From Qipengyuania aquimaris (lineage in GTDB: Bacteria; Pseudomonadota; Alphaproteobacteria; Sphingomonadales; Sphingomonadaceae), in the NCBI RefSeq assembly GCF_009827445.1, contig NZ_WTYI01000001.1, forward strand, positions 62,001-126,000: 64,000 nt of DNA, read 5' to 3'. Under the pieces are notes generated by a model that did no database searches, was not told the origin of the DNA, and saw only the letters and a list, made by a program, of their open reading frames with translations. Shown piece by piece: positions 1 through 8,784 of the stretch (position 1 is its first letter; each line of letters opens with the position of its first letter). Position numbers and translations under genes: made by a program.

Positions 1-3000
1 GGCGGATTGGAAAATACGAAAATCCAAACTGGCAAGCCGAGAGAGTAGCGCACGCACTCGTGACCTATCTGCCCAGAACAGCCACTTTCCTTTGTCAGCC
101 AGAAGAAACGTCCATAGATGGGGGTCTTCGGGCTTGACGGCATGTCGCTCCAATACGTCGAGCCACGCGTCGTAAGCCTGCTCCTCGCGTCCGATCAGCC
201 CATGAAAGATCGCGGAAAGAGGCGTGTAGTTTTCTTGAGGAACTATGCGCATCCCCCCGTAGGCGTGAAACAGTAGAGGGGAAGGCGCGGTCTTCTCTCT
301 CTTGTTTCGGCGTTCGTTTTCGGCGTCCCTCGCTAACCGCCGCTCGGTTTGATCGACAATCGCGTCGGGATCGTTCTCCAACCAACTTTCGAGCATTGCT
401 ACCGTATCATCCGGCAACCCCTTCAACGGATCGGCAAGTCGAGAAAGTGCCCAACTGGCGTGGGTCTTCCAAGTGCGCGACGAAAATCCCGCGCTCGAAA
501 GATCGTGGATCATTCCGAGCAGTTTACGAGGCGGGTAGATACCGTCTTTCGACAACTCGTCCAACAAATAGCCTGCCGCGTGCTCATGCTTCCCCGGGAC
601 AAATCGCGCCGCGATGCGGATTGCCCGCTCAGGGTTCTTTTTTCCAAACTCTGCGAAAGCGCGAGACAGTTCGACGACCCCCCCGTCCCGCGAAATGGGT
701 CGCCGATGTGACCGCTCTGACTCGTCGTGTATTTCGTCTAGCATGCGGAAGATGTCGTCATCTGCTGCCTTCTCCATGGCAGTTTCCGACATGGGTGACC
801 CGACAAACGTCCCCATCGACCCCCCACGTTTGCGCGGAATAGGCTGTCGCTTCCGCTCCCGCATCTCGGCAACCTGCCGTCTCCGGCGCGGAGGCAAGTT
901 TTTCTGTGGCAACCTCTCAAGCAATTCCATGCGGTTCTCATCAGACCATCGAAGCCGCATGCGTCTCAAGTCGGCAGTGTCCTCCTTACCGTGCCCAGCC
1001 TCATAGAGTGACCATCCCTCAATGCGGTCGCGAAGCGCCATCACCGGTTCGCCGGAAAGATGTTTACCAATCATTTCGACCAGTTCTTGGGATGACAAAC
1101 CGGCCTCGATTGATGACATGCCCGGCTCTACCGTGACATGCGCGTCGCCGATGTAGAAACGTCGCTCATCGGCAAGGATGTAACCTAGCGCTTCCTCGGC
1201 AAGCGACGCACCGCCTGCGACATAGGTTTGAGCAATCATATCCTGCAATTGGTCGATCTCGACAGAAGCTAGGCGCGTAATGAGCCGCGAGGCTAATTCT
1301 GGCTCAGTCTTTGCGACAGCGCTCATCGCTTCTTGAAGTGCGACAATGATGCTTCCGTGCTCACCCTCTACTTGCCAATCCCACGGAAGCGATTTGGATT
1401 TGGAGTATCGTTTGATACCGTCGCAATACGGATCGACTTGCTTCTCTGCCTGCTCAATCAACCACGGCAGAAGAGCCTCCGCGAACTCGGCAGGAGCCGC
1501 CTCGGCCAGCTTCTCGACGTCGTGCAATTGGGGACCGGTATGTTCATCGGCTTCGATTGTCCCCACCCAGATTGCAACGACGCGACACGCCTCCCCCAGT
1601 CTGCCATCCGTCCGCAAAGTGCTAACCAGATGGGATACGCTATATGGGTCGATAGCTGTCCGGCTGAGAATGGTGCGGATCAGCGTCTCCACGTCGTCAG
1701 TGATGACGCCAGATTGCTCGGCAATACGAAAAACCAGCTGGTCCTTTGAAGGGTCACTCCAATGCGAACGAACCAGCGAGACCATATTGTCCGGGTCTTC
1801 TCTGGCTTCCGCGGCAAGCCCCTGCACCGCCCGCCAATGAAAGTCCTCTTGCTGCATGAGTTGCGGTAGGCATTTCGACAAGTGGGGCCGCCACTTGGAC
1901 CAGTGCTCAACGATCTTCCCCAAGCCGCGATTTGCCAAGATTGGGTCGGTGCGGATGAGTGTTTCGATCCATGCAGCTTCCTGCTGAGTGGGGTCACCAA
2001 CCGTCGAGACCACATCTGTGACGAGGTGTCTGAGGTGACGCCGGGTTCGTCCGTCGCCGAGCAAAGCCGAAACCGCCCGTATGTAGGCGCCCTCGTCGGT
2101 CGCCCTAAGCCGTTGCAATGATCGCAGCACGGTTGCGCGCACGAACAGACTATCTTGGTTGCGCCACGCATAGTCAGCTAGGTCGCCGCCGGAGCGAAAA
2201 CTCTTCGCCTGAAAATCATCGAGCCAAGACTGGTGGCTGAACCCGATCTTCTGGCCACTACGGACGATCAAGCCACACGCTTCGCCTCTGGCCAAGGCTT
2301 CTTTGCTGTTCGCCTCATATACGTCGGCTGGACGCCACAGTGTCTCGGTTGCGAGCATTTCCGAGGCGAGGTTCTGCATTAATTCCAAAACCGCTTTGCG
2401 GGTCTGGTCGGGTCCAAGGTTAGCTGTAGCAAGCCAACGATCCAACAAGTCGCCTGCTTCTACCGAAGAAGGATCGACACCCCGCTGCACCAGTTGAACG
2501 AACAGCTTGAGGGCAAATGGCCTGCGGAGCGTCTCCTTCAACTCCTCAGAAATGCCAGCGCACTCAATTCCCAGATCGGCGAGAAGAACAAGCACGCTTT
2601 CAGTCGAGGGTAGCGCTAGATTGAACTCCTCAGCCTTGAGTTGTTGGAAACGCGCATCGTGTGCCGCCTCGAACGGGCGCGACGACACAACGACATGCAC
2701 ACGCAGCCTTTGATCTCGGATGTGCCTGACCATCCTGAGAAGAACTTTCATCCGGTCGGACGAACGGTCCATGACGTCGCTAACCGCGTCCAATTGGTCT
2801 ACAATTACAGTCACGGATGAGGATTGAGCGACCGCCGCAATCTCGGCCGCCAGCGGTCCTGACATTCCTAGGGCGCGCCCAATGTCATCGACGGTTTGGA
2901 TCGACACTGGGAGGGTGTCAGCCTTGATGCCGAAAACAACGTGACCACCCCCTTCCAACTCGTCGGTTAGCTTGGACATTAGGGCCGATTTCCCCGACCC

Positions 3001-3690
3001 CGCCTCGCCGATGAGGATCGACGTTCCACTAGGTTCCGCGAGAATGTGCCTCTTGAGGCGCTCCAGTTCCGGCCTCAGAATTTCATGCCCGGAGATGTCT
3101 CTCGGCCACTCTCGCAGTTCGTCCGATCCTGTTTTTGCGTCTCGCATAGCATCGTGCAAGTTGATCGCGGACGCTTCCTTTCCCTTCTCCTGCCGCTCCA
3201 TCATTGTTCGGATCGCCGTCACGTGACTGAGCGTTGCCTCGGTGGCGACGTAGTGACCGACTTCTCGCCAGTGCGTGGATTTGTTGAATTGAGACCGTAG
3301 TTCACGAATGATGGTCGCGAACGCGGCCACGAGATCGTCGCGCTCAGTTTGGAAGACGCGACGAAGGGCCTCGTCCGCAGTTTCATCCTTAGCAAAACGG
3401 TCGACAAACATTTGAACGAACCGCTTGGCCAATCCGTCCGAGTCGGGAAGGTTCGACGGATCGCTTATGATGGCTTCAAGAAAAGGAACGAATACCACTT
3501 TCACGAAGCTGACGGACCGAAGATCGTCCGCGAGCGCAGGAACAGTCTGTATCCCCGCTTCAATAGAGGCGGAGCCTATCTCGGCGATTTCCTTTTTGGC
3601 TTCGCCTGATTTGAGGAGATTGAAACCCTTGCTGGCTGCATAACCCAATGCGGCCTCGCCGATTACCCCAAGAATGACCTCAGCCAACAC
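1..3690 (-). CDS. Large STAND-type P-loop NTPase (partial; C-terminus beyond left edge)
   Basis: The reading frame is open for at least 1230 codons and runs off the window at position 1. A Walker A motif GEAGSGKS lies at residues 228-235 and a Walker B VIVDQLD at 295-301, followed by several hundred residues of helical, repeat-like sequence without recognisable motifs. That order (N-terminal region, NTPase, long superhelical sensor) is typical of STAND proteins, many of which act in antiphage defence. The N-terminal 200 residues show no nuclease, TIR or protease motif that I recognise. I chose the GTG at 3690 because a perfect AAGGAG lies nine bases upstream; an ATG at 3708 in the same frame has no ribosome site. 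Defence function is inference. Confidence 0.8.
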   Translation of the reverse strand, partial: MLAEVILGVIGEAALGYAASKGFNLLKSGEAKKEIAEIGSASIEAGIQTVPALADDLRSVSFVKVVFVPFLEAIISDPSNLPDSDGLAKRFVQMFVDRFAKDETADEALRRVFQTERDDLVAAFATIIRELRSQFNKSTHWREVGHYVATEATLSHVTAIRTMMERQEKGKEASAINLHDAMRDAKTGSDELREWPRDISGHEILRPELERLKRHILAEPSGTSILIGEAGSGKSALMSKLTDELEGGGHVVFGIKADTLPVSIQTVDDIGRALGMSGPLAAEIAAVAQSSSVTVIVDQLDAVSDVMDRSSDRMKVLLRMVRHIRDQRLRVHVVVSSRPFEAAHDARFQQLKAEEFNLALPSTESVLVLLADLGIECAGISEELKETLRRPFALKLFVQLVQRGVDPSSVEAGDLLDRWLATANLGPDQTRKAVLELMQNLASEMLATETLWRPADVYEANSKEALARGEACGLIVRSGQKIGFSHQSWLDDFQAKSFRSGGDLADYAWRNQDSLFVRATVLRSLQRLRATDEGAYIRAVSALLGDGRTRRHLRHLVTDVVSTVGDPTQQEAAWIETLIRTDPILANRGLGKIVEHWSKWRPHLSKCLPQLMQQEDFHWRAVQGLAAEAREDPDNMVSLVRSHWSDPSKDQLVFRIAEQSGVITDDVETLIRTILSRTAIDPYSVSHLVSTLRTDGRLGEACRVVAIWVGTIEADEHTGPQLHDVEKLAEAAPAEFAEALLPWLIEQAEKQVDPYCDGIKRYSKSKSLPWDWQVEGEHGSIIVALQEAMSAVAKTEPELASRLITRLASVEIDQLQDMIAQTYVAGGASLAEEALGYILADERRFYIGDAHVTVEPGMSSIEAGLSSQELVEMIGKHLSGEPVMALRDRIEGWSLYEAGHGKEDTADLRRMRLRWSDENRMELLERLPQKNLPPRRRRQVAEMRERKRQPIPRKRGGSMGTFVGSPMSETAMEKAADDDIFRMLDEIHDESERSHRRPISRDGGVVELSRAFAEFGKKNPERAIRIAARFVPGKHEHAAGYLLDELSKDGIYPPRKLLGMIHDLSSAGFSSRTWKTHASWALSRLADPLKGLPDDTVAMLESWLENDPDAIVDQTERRLARDAENERRNKREKTAPSPLLFHAYGGMRIVPQENYTPLSAIFHGLIGREEQAYDAWLDVLERHAVKPEDPHLWTFLLADKGKWLFWADRSRVRALLSRLASLDFRIFQSA

Positions 3691-3752
3691 GCCCCTTATC
3701 TCCTTCATGAAGAGCCAGATGAGGGCTTAACGTCTTTTAGGGCAAGGACGCA

Positions 3753-3913: not shown

Positions 3914-4477
3914 TTAGGCTCTCGTTGGACAGGCTGTAGCATACGAAAGGAATCCCAGTTTTCGCGCCTGTTCCCTGACTGTCGCGGTAGCTTGACCCGG
4001 AAGCCACCAACTCTTTGATGTGGGGTCCCAGCGCGCTCCCAGCTTCTTGGCCTTGTCTTTGTCCGCGAAAGAGACTTTCAGTTCGATCCGATCCCGGGGC
4101 GGGTCTGATCGAGTTTTGCCTCGTTTTTTGTCTACGGCAGCAAGAGCATCTGCAATTCTCGGGTCGTCCAGTGGCCGCAGCTCGGCACCTTCCGCCCACG
4201 CTGGTGGCTCAATCTGTCGCCATGTCTTATAAGTTCCGGCCGTATCGAGAGAGGCGAGTTCCTCCCGCAAGTCACCTTTTAGGTTGTAGATGTCCATCAG
4301 GACCGACGGGTTGCCGTAATAGGGGGGCGGCTTTGTCGCTCTGCCCATAGCCACTATCCGGGCGCATGAGGCCTCCCAAGTCGTGCGCCGGACCCAGATG
4401 CCAGGACCATTGGCGTCGTCGAGCATTTGAAAAACATTTCGGCTATTGTCCTTCTTCCAACTCTCGTCACCCGCCAT
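3914..4477 (-). CDS. DUF5710 domain-containing protein
   Basis: This is a 187-residue soluble protein. Residues about 127-155 carry the DUF5710 signature: a short beta strand, a KDKAKKLGARWD segment and a SWWLP end. This domain is found in mobile-element proteins and next to helicase, primase or toprim modules, but its role is not known. I chose the ATG at 4477 because GGAGGAG lies eight bases upstream; two upstream ATGs in the same frame lack such a site. The gene is divergent from the serine recombinase and convergent with nothing. Its C-terminus may be frameshifted (see the ORF at 3753-3872). Confidence 0.65.
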   Translation of the reverse strand: MAGDESWKKDNSRNVFQMLDDANGPGIWVRRTTWEASCARIVAMGRATKPPPYYGNPSVLMDIYNLKGDLREELASLDTAGTYKTWRQIEPPAWAEGAELRPLDDPRIADALAAVDKKRGKTRSDPPRDRIELKVSFADKDKAKKLGARWDPTSKSWWLPGQATATVREQARKLGFLSYATACPTRA

Positions 4478-4627
4478 CACACAATCTCCTCCGGACATCA
4501 CATGCCTATCGAAAGATCGGTTTGTCAAAAGGCTGCGCTGAATGAACCAGCGTGAACTAATCGGGAATATTTCTGGCTCGCAAGAGGCCCCTTTGGGACG
4601 ACGAATGTCCTAGACCACACCCCGCAC

Positions 4628-4666: not shown

Positions 4667-5230
4667 GTGAAGGTCGGCTACGCCAGAACATCCACCTTTG
4701 ACCAAATCGCCGGATTGGAAGCCCAGCATAGGCTTCTCGAAGAGACAGGCTGCACCCAGATTTTCTCGGAGCAAGTTTCGTCGGTTGGCGAGCGGGCACA
4801 ATTCCAGAACGCGCTGGACTTTGTCAGGCAAGGGGACGTGCTGATCGTCACACGCTTAGACAGGCTTGCGCGCTCAACCTCGGACCTTCTCGGCATCCTT
4901 GCCGTCTTGGAAGACAAGCAGACGGGCCTGCACATCCTCGATTTTGGCGGCTCAGAAATGGATACCCATTCGCCGACTGGGAAGTTGATGCTGACGATGT
5001 TCGGTGCACTAGCCCAGTTCGAGCGCGAACTAATGCTCGTTCGCCAGCGTGAGGGTATTGAGCGCGCCAAGGCAGCGGGAAAGTATCGTGGCAGAGTGCC
5101 CACAGCCCGGCGCAGACTTCCAGAGATGCTCGAACTTGCCCAAAAAGGTCTTACCCCTCCCGAGATAGCCAACCGCCTACAGGTCTCTCGTGCGAGCGTC
5201 TATCGGCTGTTGAAGGATGAACGGTCGTGA
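4667..5230 (+). CDS. Serine recombinase, resolvase/invertase family
   Basis: This 187-residue protein has the small resolvase/invertase layout. The N-terminal catalytic domain begins with YARTSTFDQ, in which Ser9 is the expected nucleophile, and continues with the conserved LDRLARS and GALAQFERE segments. A C-terminal helix-turn-helix (about 150-187: GLTPPEIANRLQVSRASVYRLL) binds the recombination site. The length matches Tn3-type resolvases. The start is a GTG with AGGGGA upstream. The stop overlaps the GTG of the next small gene (GTGA), so it heads a three-gene translationally coupled unit. It may resolve, invert or mobilise part of the island; no inverted segment is visible in the window. 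Confidence 0.9.
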   Translation: MKVGYARTSTFDQIAGLEAQHRLLEETGCTQIFSEQVSSVGERAQFQNALDFVRQGDVLIVTRLDRLARSTSDLLGILAVLEDKQTGLHILDFGGSEMDTHSPTGKLMLTMFGALAQFERELMLVRQREGIERAKAAGKYRGRVPTARRRLPEMLELAQKGLTPPEIANRLQVSRASVYRLLKDERS

Positions 5231-5421
5231 ACCAGTCAGGCGAAATCTTCGCGCGGATCATAGCTGAATTGGAAGACCTGCACTGTGTGGCGGTTGATGG
5301 CCAAGCCGCCGACCAGACGCCCGAAGCCATCGCGGTTCTTTCAATTGAGATTTGCAACGGGTTGCAACGCGTCGGCGATCTCTTCGCCGAGGTGCGTTGC
5401 ATTGCGAAGCCTCTGCCATGA
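5227..5421 (+). CDS. Small acidic protein of unknown function, coupled to recombinase
   Basis: This 64-residue protein is predominantly helical and acidic and has no recognisable domain. It starts at a GTG that overlaps the recombinase stop by four bases, and its own TGA overlaps the ATG of the HNH-like gene by four bases. The two overlaps are the main evidence that it is translated. The small size and position between a recombinase and a nuclease-like protein would fit an accessory or regulatory factor, but that is inference. Confidence 0.55.
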   Translation: MNQSGEIFARIIAELEDLHCVAVDGQAADQTPEAIAVLSIEICNGLQRVGDLFAEVRCIAKPLP

Positions 5422-5894
5422 GATGCCTAGCACAGGATGTGCTGCTGGATCACAAGGTAGAGGACTTGATCGCGGATGGCTGTTCATTGCCGCGCTGGGG
5501 GTTCGCCATTCCCGGGCCTTACAACGGTGCGACTGGCGAGGAACGTGTCTACGCTTGGCAGAAGAACCAGATCGCGTGGCGGCTCGGTTGGCTTCCGCGC
5601 AATCAGACCTGCTCGATCTGCGAGACAAGACCTGCCGATCAAGGTCATCAAGAGATATATATGCGCGCCTTTGCGCTAATGCCTGTTTGCAGGTCGTGCC
5701 ACGTCCGTTTGCATCGTAGGTTCGGTGATCCGGATCGCTGGCAGGCGTTCGTCGATCAGCTTTCGCCCGATAACTGGGCGAGGATGCTCCTGCCCGAGCA
5801 ATTGGATCGCGTCGATGCAATGAGGATAGCCGCAGAACTGGACTGGCTAAGCGCGCTTGCAGCTTTCTCGGAGGTTTGGCGAGCAGCGCGGTGA
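5418..5894 (+). CDS. HNH-like zinc-binding protein
   Basis: This 158-residue protein has two CxxC pairs (Cys65/Cys68 and Cys91/Cys94) followed directly by His95 and His99, with His77 between the pairs. That is the treble-clef arrangement of HNH endonucleases and related zinc proteins. The ATG at 5418 overlaps the preceding stop (ATGA), which decides the start over a longer upstream frame. It is the last gene of the recombinase unit. Whether it cuts DNA is not certain because the classical catalytic HNH triad is not cleanly formed; it could also be a structural DNA-binding zinc protein. Confidence 0.55.
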   Translation: MRCLAQDVLLDHKVEDLIADGCSLPRWGFAIPGPYNGATGEERVYAWQKNQIAWRLGWLPRNQTCSICETRPADQGHQEIYMRAFALMPVCRSCHVRLHRRFGDPDRWQAFVDQLSPDNWARMLLPEQLDRVDAMRIAAELDWLSALAAFSEVWRAAR

Positions 5895-5999: not shown

Positions 6000-7235
6000 A
6001 TGGCTAAGCACCCTTCATTGATCCAAAAGTATCAAATAATCGTCCGCGAGTGGATGCCCCACCTGTCGACGAACGAGTTCGCGGTCCTGATCCAGTTGGT
6101 CGACCGCACCATCGGCTGGGGCAAGACCCGTGCCACCTTCAGCCTGAACCGGGTGCTCGAAGGAGATAAGGCATACGGCGGCATAAAGATGTCGCGGCGC
6201 GGCTTGTTCTACGCGCTGTCGTCACTCGAAGAGAAGGGCATGATTGCGCGGCACAAGCACCCGCAAGGCAAGCAAATCCGTATGTATTCGGTCAATATGG
6301 GATGGACACCCGCCATGCCTATCGTGCCAAAGAGGCTTCAATATGGCCCCAAAACCAGTGCAGGGGATGCACCGGACCAGTGCAACAGTTGCACCGGCCC
6401 AGTGCATGAGGTGCACACGAGAGAAAGAAGTCTGGGAGAAGGAAGTCAGGAGAATGAAGAACAGGTAGCGGCACGTCCTGCGGACGACACCGCTACTGCG
6501 GTTAATCCGGACGATTTAATCCGGAAGGCCAAGGCCGACCTCCGGACGCTCCGCCGCCAGCCGCCGCGCAAGCTGACGACCCTGCCCCAGAAGATCGACG
6601 CCGCGCAGCGCGAATGGCGAGCCGCCATCGAAGAGAACCACCCAACTGGTGGGTGTCTCGCTTGGAACCAACGCGAGGTCGCCATGGTCAAGGCCAAGCT
6701 GCGTGGCTGGAACGACCGCCGCATCGAATTTCACAAATTCATTGGTTGGTGCGCGGCCAACTGGAGCCTCGTGCGCCGGAAGCAACTGGCGTGGATGACC
6801 AAGTCTAAGCCGCCCAAGACGCCCGAAATCGGTTTCCTTGTGTCGTTCATCACTCACTTCCACGAGGCGTGGGCAGACCGCGACCTAGGCAACTGGATGC
6901 ACGAAGATCAGACCCGCGACTACGATAAGCTGCGTGCCAAGGGCCTGTCGCACGACGAAGCCGTCCACCGCCTCGCCAAGGACGACGCCATCGCGGAGAC
7001 GCGAGACGAGAACCGCAAGGCCAAGCAGGACATCGCCATTCGCCGTGGCATGCTCAAGCGGCAGGAAGAACGGCTCAAAAACAAGACGAGCGCCGCTCCA
7101 CACCCACGCTCCGAGGCGGCCCGGGCTTCTAAGCGCCCGGCAGCCAAACCCGTCAAACGGCTGACCGGGCAAGAGTTGCAAGATTTCGAGTTCGACGACA
7201 CGCCGCTTGATCCAAATTGGGAGCCGCTAAATTGA
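6000..7235 (+). CDS. Phage-type replication initiator (O-like), winged helix N-terminus
   Basis: This 411-residue protein begins with a winged-helix-like domain at about residues 5-100 (segments such as LSTNEFAVLIQLVDRTIGWGK and SRRGLFYALSSLEEKGMI). Such a domain is found in phage replication protein O and replisome organisers, where it binds origin iterons. Residues 119-140 are a linker encoded by three 22-bp DNA repeats. The remaining part is basic and charged, with no ATPase motif, so a separate helicase loader or the host DnaB/DnaC system would be needed. It sits alone between an AT-rich leader and the integrase region. It may allow the excised element to replicate. The assignment rests on the N-terminal fold pattern and the iterons. 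Confidence 0.65.
   Translation: MAKHPSLIQKYQIIVREWMPHLSTNEFAVLIQLVDRTIGWGKTRATFSLNRVLEGDKAYGGIKMSRRGLFYALSSLEEKGMIARHKHPQGKQIRMYSVNMGWTPAMPIVPKRLQYGPKTSAGDAPDQCNSCTGPVHEVHTRERSLGEGSQENEEQVAARPADDTATAVNPDDLIRKAKADLRTLRRQPPRKLTTLPQKIDAAQREWRAAIEENHPTGGCLAWNQREVAMVKAKLRGWNDRRIEFHKFIGWCAANWSLVRRKQLAWMTKSKPPKTPEIGFLVSFITHFHEAWADRDLGNWMHEDQTRDYDKLRAKGLSHDEAVHRLAKDDAIAETRDENRKAKQDIAIRRGMLKRQEERLKNKTSAAPHPRSEAARASKRPAAKPVKRLTGQELQDFEFDDTPLDPNWEPLN
6354..6419 (+). repeat. Three tandem 22-bp palindromic iterons inside the initiator gene
   Basis: Units at 6354-6375, 6376-6397 and 6398-6419 each contain GTGCA-N5-TGCAC, flanked by ACCA (CCCA in unit 3) and CGG (ACG in unit 3). The palindromes start at 6358, 6380 and 6402, an exact period of 22 bases, about two helical turns. 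Twenty-two is not a multiple of three, so the repeats are read in different frames and encode unrelated peptides; the conservation is therefore at DNA level. This is what initiator-binding iterons look like. Confidence 0.85.
6418..6467 (+). other. Purine-rich tract next to the iterons (candidate unwinding element)
   Basis: Immediately after the third iteron about 50 bases are overwhelmingly A and G on the plus strand (only about eight pyrimidines). In the lambda origin the iterons in gene O are likewise followed by a purine-rich, easily melted segment. The resemblance is in arrangement only; the tract here is not especially AT-rich. Confidence 0.45.
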
Positions 7236-7326: not shown

Positions 7327-7557
7327 ATGGCCATTTCTCGCCGAAAAGCCGTGAAATTATCATCCAGGCTACAGTCCCAAGGAGGTTCCAACTTCCGAAA
7401 GGTTGATTTGAAGCGTGCAATTGACGGGGCGCAGCGCGTTGGAATGGATATCGGTGCGGTCGAAATACGACCTGATGGAACGATCACTATTCGCGCTGCG
7501 GGAGAAGTTGCTTCTTCGTCAAATGAATTGTTTGAGCGATGGGAAGAACGTCTCTGA
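7327..7557 (+). CDS. Small protein upstream of and overlapping the integrase
   Basis: This 76-residue protein has a basic N-terminus (MAISRRKAVK) and a second half with alternating beta-like sequence (IGAVEIRPDGTITIRA). AAAGGAAG lies a few bases upstream of the ATG. Its 3' end overlaps the integrase gene by 19 bases, so the two are probably co-translated. Small genes of this kind often precede tyrosine integrases in alphaproteobacterial islands and could be an excisionase or an integrase partner, but no helix-turn-helix is evident. Confidence 0.6.
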   Translation: MAISRRKAVKLSSRLQSQGGSNFRKVDLKRAIDGAQRVGMDIGAVEIRPDGTITIRAAGEVASSSNELFERWEERL

Positions 7558-8663
7558 CGTCCTCGCCTCATATTGTCCGTAAACGCACGAGAAACGGCAT
7601 CGTGTGGTATGTCTACGCGTGGAGGGGCGGCCCGCAGGTTTCAAGGTTCGAGCAGGCTAAGCGACCAAAATTGCAATCTTCGGATTGGGTAAAAATTTAT
7701 CAGGCCGAAGAGGCCGCTCGGAATGATCGCACACGGCTTGTAGGCGGTGCTCTTACAGCTTTCAGGGGGTCAGCCTACTGGGCTGCACTTGCCAATAGCA
7801 CGCAAAAAACATGGGGGGCAGCGCTTGATAAAGTCGAAAAAAAATGGGGTCGGGTCCCACTAGTTCTCTTTGACGATCCGAGAATGAAAGCAAAGATCGT
7901 CGCATGGCGAAATACCATGGCGAGCACTCCTAGGACGGCCGACATTTCGGTTTCTGTGCTTTCAAGATTTCTGGAATGGGCAACCCTCGACGGTCTGCTT
8001 GCCATTAATGTTGCTAAGGGTGTGCCGACTATTCACCGCAGCGAGAGCCGCGCACCGATCATTTGGACGGGCGACGATCTCAATGCGTTGAAGACGGTTG
8101 CCCAACAGCCGCTGCGGGATGCTGTCGATCTGGCTGTTCTGACCGGATTGCGTCGTGCTGACTTGGTCGCGCTACGATGGGATGAAGTAAACGATCTAGC
8201 AATTCACAGGACCGCTGCGAAGCGCTCAAGACGTAAAAGATTTCGAGTTACCATCCCTAGGCTCCCCCAGCTGGATGATCTTCTTACAGCCCTTCGAGAG
8301 CGCGACCGGAGGCCGGGTGTTGAGACAGTTCTAGTGAATAGCTTCGGAAAATCTTGGACCGGGGATGGCCTGAACTCAAGTTTTTACGATGCACGAAAAA
8401 AGGCGAATAATGGGAAGGGCATTTGGCATCGGGAACGCGATCCTGTCACTGGCGAAGAACAACTCACTCAAAAGCGCCTTCATGACATGAGAGGAACATT
8501 CGCCACTCGGATCATGGCACACCCAAAGGCGAAGCTGACAAATCGAGAGGTGGCCGACATTATGGGTTGGTCGCCGGAACAGGTCGAGCAAATCCGGAAG
8601 AGATACGTTGACGATACCGCTATCGTGGTGTCAATCACCCGCCGCTTGGCAGGCGATCTGTAA
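7539..8663 (+). CDS. int: Tyrosine recombinase / integrase
   Basis: This 374-residue site-specific recombinase catalyses integration and excision of the island. The catalytic residues can be placed: Arg205 in TGLRRADL, a basic strand near 228-233 that holds the likely catalytic Lys, His315 and Arg318 in HDMRGTFA, and the nucleophile Tyr356 in KRYVDD. An N-terminal SAM-like core-binding domain occupies roughly residues 65-160. The gene overlaps the preceding small ORF and ends 47 bases before tRNA-Gly, the expected attachment site. The length is normal for the family and no key residue is missing, so it should be active. Confidence 0.93.
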   Translation: MGRTSLTSSPHIVRKRTRNGIVWYVYAWRGGPQVSRFEQAKRPKLQSSDWVKIYQAEEAARNDRTRLVGGALTAFRGSAYWAALANSTQKTWGAALDKVEKKWGRVPLVLFDDPRMKAKIVAWRNTMASTPRTADISVSVLSRFLEWATLDGLLAINVAKGVPTIHRSESRAPIIWTGDDLNALKTVAQQPLRDAVDLAVLTGLRRADLVALRWDEVNDLAIHRTAAKRSRRKRFRVTIPRLPQLDDLLTALRERDRRPGVETVLVNSFGKSWTGDGLNSSFYDARKKANNGKGIWHRERDPVTGEEQLTQKRLHDMRGTFATRIMAHPKAKLTNREVADIMGWSPEQVEQIRKRYVDDTAIVVSITRRLAGDL

Positions 8664-8710: not shown

Positions 8711-8784
8711 GCGGGTGTAGCTCAATGGTAGAGCAGCAGCTTCCCAAGCTGACGACGAGGGTTCGATTCCCTTCACCCGCTCCA
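8711..8784 (+). tRNA. tRNA-Gly (anticodon CCC)
   Basis: A complete cloverleaf can be drawn. The 7-bp acceptor stem is GCGGGTG with CACCCGC, the D-arm is AGCTCAATGGTAGAGC, the anticodon loop is TTCCCAA giving anticodon CCC, the T-loop is TTCGATT, and TCCA follows the acceptor, so CCA is encoded. The outermost pair of the anticodon stem is G-A. The gene begins 47 bp after the integrase stop, so its promoter must lie in or be replaced by island DNA. It is the likely attachment target. Confidence 0.95.

Follow-up and report, generated by a model that had tools for sequence, protein, structure and literature searches.

An element integrated at tRNA-Gly(CCC)

The window, a 64,000 bp stretch of the Qipengyuania aquimaris genome, contains the greater part of an integrated element that begins to its left. 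The element is 9,573 bp (C1:61138-70710) and is flanked by identical 39 bp repeats of the 5' half of tRNA-Gly(CCC). The attR core lies at 8711-8749 (+ strand) of the window, where 8711 corresponds to C1:70711, within the tRNA-Gly(CCC) gene at 8711-8784, and is identical to attL at C1:61138-61176, left of the window. Three genomes of the same genus (G220, G138 and G205) have empty sites; their collinearity with the host genome, small gaps apart, extends to C1:61176 and resumes at C1:70711, with a 39 bp overlap between the two blocks. The att repeats and the three empty sites bear out the initial annotation, which had described an integrase-bearing integrated island. Integration into a tRNA gene usually rebuilds its 3' half. 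Here, integration is in the 5' half of the gene with the integrase on the 5' side, and the rebuilt tRNA gene receives its 5' half and upstream sequence from the element.

The leftmost gene (window 1-3708, whole C1:61293-65708, - strand) encodes a 1471 aa NACHT/STAND-like NTPase that matches Pfam NACHT with E=2e-5, at 24.9 bits and under the cut-off of 26.7, and PADLOC PDC-M54A with E=4.5e-9. It is a likely candidate for defence cargo. It is followed by genes for a DUF5710 protein (3914-4528, - strand; Pfam E=7.6e-13), a serine resolvase/invertase (4667-5230, + strand; Pfam Resolvase 5.3e-37, PHROG 125) and an HNH-endonuclease-like protein (5352-5894, + strand), which matches PHROG 2340 endonuclease (E=0.0013), has no Pfam match and has a homologue in the Croceibacterium element described below. 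To the right of the initiator gene (6000-7235), a tyrosine integrase gene at 7539-8663 (+ strand; PHROG 1 integrase E=5.3e-28, Pfam Phage_integrase 7.5e-7) is preceded by a 76 aa ORF at 7327-7557 (+ strand). The small ORF matches neither a Pfam nor a PHROG family at E<0.06 and by eye resembles the small pre-integrase ORFs of loci L071 and L074; that it encodes an excision factor is a possible guess. All of the named ORFs are open. Among the element's ORFs of at least 100 aa, no packaging or capsid gene was recognised by eye and no P-like helicase loader gene or helicase gene was recognised, nor was a loader recognised in the 76 aa ORF. The initial annotation had likewise seen no loader gene.

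The predicted initiator gene and its relatives

The 411 aa product of the gene at 6000-7235 (+ strand) is predicted to be an O-like replication initiator from a PHROG 678 match, tblastn matches to phage proteins encoded in replication operons, and an AlphaFold2 model searched with Foldseek. The model, which was built from an alignment of 4 sequences and has low overall confidence (pLDDT 60.6, pTM 0.31), comprises a winged helix at approximately aa 7-98, an unordered linker at aa 109-170 and a helical C-terminal part at approximately aa 195-364. PHROG 678, 'replication initiation O-like', matched the window protein with E=1.5e-5, lambda O with 1.7e-35 and the homologues in phages L338C (4.6e-7) and HJ05 (5.8e-4), while those in Croceibacterium, genome G874 and plasmid p7 returned no PHROG match at E<=0.01. 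As PHROG 678 also has matches in 8 of 14 control genomes, the profile is weak alone and was not relied upon. The 28.7 bit cut-off of Pfam Phage_rep_O was not reached by the window initiator (12.9 bits) and likewise not by the proteins of HJ05 (24.0 bits) and L338C (16.8 bits). The profile evidence for an O-like initiator is modest; the tblastn matches to phages are stronger.

Five phage records, two of them from Rhizobium phage vB_RleS_L338C (L338C) and one each from Rhizobium phages P11VFA and RHph_I4 and from Aeromonas phage HJ05, match 81-85% of the initiator at 24-26% identity, and the C-terminal part is common to the window protein and the phage proteins. A homologue in the Rhizobium bangladeshense plasmid p7 covers only 37% of the initiator, at 28% identity. 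In L338C, RHph_I4 and p7, genes for a protein of 183-186 aa, a DnaB-like helicase and a DNA polymerase come next after the initiator homologue; the genes around the HJ05 homologue are annotated as hypothetical. The 109 kb p7 (NZ_CP071625.1; 28245-38724, L007) carries a block with a phage-type initiator, a DnaB-like helicase and a polymerase, and is possibly a phage-plasmid.

When the initiator model was compared with the PDB using Foldseek, no match at E<=0.001 was returned and the closest folds were MarR/CodY-like; a profile search of PDB sequences returned only SlyA/MarR (E 0.098 and 0.77). A viral library gave 24 models at E<=0.001, whose TM-scores are low (about 0.3 at the highest), including 'lambda, GpO, N-terminal' (E=1.1e-6, low TM-score) and two named replisome organizer. 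The best of the viral-library matches, V9QJ92, is not independent, as it has the same length as a phage protein already in the model's alignment.

A search of 397 genomes of the family found six with any match: the host genome, a close relative in G876, distant ones in G144 and G874, and two doubtful ones. Among 396 genomes of the order, the window protein matched its own genome, G144 and, doubtfully, G363. Profile A1 found only the window in 385 genomes of the class, and no relative was returned when other genome and viral sets were scanned with the protein itself. Three weak matches (L003, L033 and L034), by eye in other genes or short frames, were dropped as homologues.

Palindromic repeats within the predicted initiator gene

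Three units with the structure GTGCA-N5-TGCAC lie within the initiator gene: GTGCAGGGGATGCAC at 6358-6372 (GTGCA-GGGGA-TGCAC), GTGCAACAGTTGCAC at 6380-6394 (GTGCA-ACAGT-TGCAC) and GTGCATGAGGTGCAC at 6402-6416 (GTGCA-TGAGG-TGCAC). Each is a 5-N5-5 dyad, and the starts at 6358, 6380 and 6402 are 22 and 22 bp apart, confirming both the coordinates and the perfect 22 bp register given in the initial annotation. As a period of 22 is not divisible by three, the units lie in three different codon phases and encode different peptides, again as first described. The array, at about aa 120-139, falls within the linker at aa 109-170 of the low-confidence model, which agrees with the original placement in the linker of a winged-helix initiator.

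The pattern GTGCA-N5-TGCAC occurs three times in the window against 0.10 expected (sd 0.30), a count reached in 0 of 100 shuffles. The entire 2.66 Mb genome contains four such sites, three of which are the array, and two copies of a reversed control pattern. When the codons of the gene were shuffled synonymously, preserving the peptide, three equal dyads arose in 1 of 2000 shuffles (P=0.001). Every unit is an inverted repeat with all arm pairs intact (15/15), which has P=0.0007 with peptide and register fixed, and a looser, unsupervised dyad-pair test gave P=0.04 for the same gene.

The 60 bp behind the last unit (6417-6476) are 78% purine, placing them in the top 1.4% of the 60 nt windows of the gene, and the purine tract noted initially is therefore present. 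Their A+T content of 50%, against a gene mean of 39%, is in the top 5.1% (top 6.5% with 40 nt windows). The tract is thus strongly purine-rich with only moderate A+T enrichment, and is a candidate DNA-unwinding element.

The related element in Croceibacterium

The closest homologue of the initiator, 55% identical, was found in Croceibacterium selenioxidans LX-88 (taken as G876; Erythrobacteraceae). It is part of an element in which genes for an NTPase (73% identical to that in the window), a resolvase, an HNH-like protein, the initiator and an integrase occur in the same order as in the window, with other genes between them, and tRNA-Gly(CCC) again lies behind the integrase. The linkers of the two initiators align without gaps over the array. 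The Croceibacterium units are GTGCC-GCTGT-GACAC, GTGTC-AGGCT-GGCAC and GTGCC-ACAGT-GGCAC, with the 22 bp register, N5 spacer and purine tract retained, and 38 of the first 45 positions after the array are kept.

The half-site differs, being GTGCA in the window and GTGYC in Croceibacterium, and the changes are mostly complementary. In all three units, the fifth and eleventh bases have gone from A:T to C:G; two further arm changes are uncompensated, leaving 13 of 15 arm pairs intact and two of the three dyads imperfect. Eight random arm changes would leave at least 13 pairs with P=0.0009. Between the two elements, 22 of 30 arm positions are conserved, against 6 of 15 spacer positions (Fisher P=0.05). 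Synonymous shuffling of the Croceibacterium gene itself gave no significant result (P=0.073 with fixed register, P=0.39 unsupervised), as the dyads are imperfect and many bases are already fixed by the peptide. The retained units and register fit the initial proposal of selection on the DNA, for which these two P values make the support less strong than first suggested.

Dyads in more distant homologues

The same linker contains dyads in the proteins of L338C, RHph_I4 and HJ05 (annotated as hypothetical), which differ from the window in dyad letters and have spacings of 33 or 23. HJ05 has GGACAC-TG-GTGTCC twice, 23 apart; G874 has GTCCG-N5-CGGAC twice, 33 apart; G144 has GTCTC-N5-GAGAC twice, 63 apart; and p7 and the viral contig L043 have CCGCC-N5-GGCGG three times, 42 and 22 apart. 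The G144 gene (L002 1456-2154) is behind a resolvase gene and an HNH-like gene, and encodes a 232 aa initiator that has two perfect dyads and is without the C-terminal part. In RHph_I4 the dyads are imperfect (P=0.66 unsupervised, P=0.077 with fixed register).

In the unsupervised test, dyads with related half-sites were paired over the whole of a gene, with mismatches tolerated and a largest pair distance of 120, and the best pair was compared with those in 300 synonymous shuffles. It was applied to nine homologues, to lambda O and to ten control genes, and for G874 the start of the frame was a position chosen by the analyst. Significance (P<0.05) was reached by seven of the nine homologues and lambda O and by none of the controls, the two misses being the Croceibacterium and RHph_I4 genes. 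As the nine include close pairs (L338C and RHph_I4; p7 and L043), they represent about seven lineages. A spacer of 5 bases was chosen in six of the seven significant homologues and in lambda, that in HJ05 being 4 (two counting the longer arms). In six of the seven, the start of the best pair lies at 0.29-0.34 of the gene length, compared with 0.39 in lambda and 0.60 in the short ORF of G144. A strict statistic requiring equal arms was significant in six of the nine homologues and missed lambda O (P=0.99); because it is blind to lambda O, the mismatch-tolerant statistic was adopted, after the first result was known.

The A+T content of the 60 nt behind the last dyad ranks within the top 5.1% in 10 of 10 genes, including lambda O, where the position of the last dyad in RHph_I4 was set by the register. 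With 40 nt windows the ranks are weaker, the worst being the top 11.7% (G144).

Most homologues thus keep palindromes in the linker despite differing letters and peptide, as the initial annotation anticipated; two viral proteins (L041 and L042), whose relatedness is N-terminal only (42 and 34 residues), contain no repeated dyad with spacers of 2, 4 or 5. They were excluded from the nine and, if true homologues, count against the plan. A wider check took 25 ORFs that match PHROG 678 in Alphaproteobacteria (L090-L114 of 30 loci, leaving out L115, the window's own, and the weaker L116-L119), with a largest pair distance of 100 and 150 shuffles. Eight of the 25 had P<=0.05 against 1.25 expected, and in all eight the pair lies at nt 326-513 of the open frame, the spacer being 5 bases in four of them and 4 or 6 in two each. 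The remaining 17 had no significant dyad pair (P>0.05), so the plan is either widespread and non-universal or sometimes beyond the detection of the test. Given the mixed spacers, 5-N5-5 is no rule outside the nearer family.

Comparison with known origins

In lambdoid phages the origin lies inside the initiator gene (PMC7466680). Like the window gene, lambda gene O has palindromic repeats in the part encoding the initiator's linker, followed by an A-rich tract that in the window is only moderately enriched in A+T. Both proteins match PHROG 678. The geometry also corresponds to the lambda plan, since a 5-N5-5 dyad (CCCTC-AAAAC-GAGGG) is what the unsupervised test selects in lambda O. The initial annotation had proposed that the plan of the lambda origin is repeated here, and the dyad geometry and, less clearly, the A-rich tract behind the repeats agree with this. 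The two differ in that lambda has four units with other letters, spaced 20, 24 and 23 in the annotated record, against three units in a perfect 22 bp register in the window. Nor was a P-like loader gene recognised among the window element's ORFs of at least 100 aa or in its 76 aa ORF, and the vehicle, unlike lambda, is a non-phage integrative element. To the extent that sequence can tell, the arrangement appears to be a lambda-like origin.

In SPP1, oriL is in gene 38, with origin repeats within the initiator gene and an AT-rich unwinding element (PMC6316719). Unlike those in the window, the SPP1 repeats are described as direct, and the phage encodes the loader gp39 and helicase gp40. The two Rhizobium phages also encode their own helicase, for which no gene was recognised among the window element's ORFs of at least 100 aa. 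The Croceibacterium element differs from that in the window in its GTGYC half-site, two imperfect dyads and additional genes.

Integrated islands that have their own initiator and iterons and can replicate include the PICIs (PMC6092414) and SGI1 (PMC7826253). In these, the origin lies at the 3' end of rep or past it, the initiators are primase-like or RepA, and a phage or plasmid helper is involved, in all of which they differ from the window. No paper on this element or these initiators was found in the literature covered, which takes in few subscription journals. As origins within initiator genes are already known from lambda and SPP1, the arrangement is a variant on a known mechanism. Its vehicle is less familiar, being an island of non-phage type that encodes a defence-like NTPase and in which neither a loader gene nor a helicase gene was recognised.

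A candidate origin and the alternatives

We consider it probable that the palindromes are iterons bound by the initiator that the very same gene encodes, and that they and the purine/A-rich tract next to them constitute the replication origin of the 9.6 kb element. This reading, drawn from sequence comparison, suggests that the island may replicate after leaving the chromosome. The tyrosine integrase would excise the element between the two 39 bp tRNA-Gly repeats, and the winged-helix N-terminal domain of the initiator would bind each palindrome as a dimer, occupying three in-register sites 22 bp, or about two helix turns, apart. The A-rich tract would then open, and the helical C-terminal part would recruit the host replicative helicase, either directly or via a host loader.

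Alternatively, the element could be a decayed remnant, with a phage-derived origin module that is now out of use. The initiator stands without the neighbouring gene of about 185 aa and the DnaB-like gene of its phage relatives, and is rare, with any match in only 6 of 397 family genomes even when the host genome and two doubtful matches are included. We regard decay as unlikely, since the named ORFs are all open, the 39 bp att repeats are identical, and the same five genes in the same order, with a 73% identical NTPase and the iteron geometry kept, are found at the same tRNA gene in another genus.

A further explanation is that the repeats are an operator, at which the winged-helix protein represses transcription of its own gene or its neighbours, replication being uninvolved. 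The closest solved folds are those of MarR/CodY-like regulators, which bind palindromes, and dyads in series might serve as a roadblock. This function would be at odds with the position of the array, some 360 bp inside the coding region and not at a promoter, and with the A+T-rich tract behind it. The phage homologues, which share the C-terminal part, are moreover in replication operons with helicase and polymerase genes, and regulation alone seems to us quite improbable.

The repeats might instead form hairpins in the mRNA that govern attenuation or decay. The fold computed for RNA from 6345-6430 has an energy of -31 kcal/mol, which none of 200 dinucleotide shuffles equalled (z=-3.1), with unit 2 nested within a helix formed by units 1 and 3. 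As equal DNA palindromes always give such an RNA fold, the fold does not discriminate, and with units numbering 2 or 3 at variable spacing in the homologues, and an A+T-rich tract and replication neighbours that fit an origin, control by hairpins is very unlikely. Least probable of all is that the repeats reflect selection on the peptide or a chance tandem duplication: two of the three units have largely similar flanks (82% identity over 22 nt) and synonymous shuffles of the window gene, many of whose bases are peptide-fixed, retain a mean of 10.6 of 15 arm pairs, but the units encode different peptides at a period that is not a multiple of three, and the preferential conservation of arms over spacers and the pairing retained in Croceibacterium argue against both.

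Elements sharing the integrase

A related integrase (E<=1e-30) was found at 23 places in 21 of the 397 family genomes. We retrieved 19 of the 23 places, three of them as short stretches, in addition to those of the host genome and G876; two fragments were left out. Among the 19, a tRNA-Gly gene is beside the integrase in 12 and a tRNA-Met gene in two, and none was found in five. The O-like profile matches at two of 22 loci, the window and Croceibacterium, both of which are contained in the profile. The resolvase and HNH-like pair is present at four of the 22, namely these two and those in G173 and G139. In G173 and G139, an ORF of 480-500 aa occupies the slot of the initiator (L071 2213-3661 and L074 2498-4003, both - strand). 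The products have no Pfam or PHROG match at E<=0.1, and are possibly unrecognised replication initiators. In G145 (L072 4029-6091), a primase/AAA_25 helicase pair is present instead of an O-like initiator, and the stretch contains neither the resolvase gene nor the HNH-like gene. A different element occupies the same tRNA-Gly site in G402 (L027 7242-18388); its integrase is 73% identical to that of the window, and an initiator of this kind is absent. By eye, the G402 element carries genes for a Vsr-like nuclease, a DNA methyltransferase and a GHKL-ATPase-like protein.

The G402 element and other loci show that the integrase module also occurs without this initiator, and the loci of G173, G139, G145 and G402 favour an exchangeable replication slot. 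A bolder reading, which we think rather unlikely, is that the island belongs to a modular family of tRNA-Gly-integrated 'replicating defence islands' with such a slot, spread within the bacterial family of the window's host, in which the O-like initiator would load host DnaB without a loader and iteron specificity would shift while the 5-N5-5, 22 bp geometry stays. If true, specificity shifts at constant geometry would make such islands mutually compatible replicons.

Implications

The plan of the lambda origin, in which the repeats are part of the linker-coding stretch of the initiator gene, is not confined to enterobacterial phages, being present in a small non-phage island. Other O-like initiator genes have it with other letters, in a geometry that is similar without being identical. 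The window and Croceibacterium elements, in which the half-site has changed in all three units and the register is the same, amount to a natural experiment on change in initiator-iteron specificity. The apparent absence of a loader opens a direct test of how a helicase may be loaded by an O-like initiator without a P-like gene.
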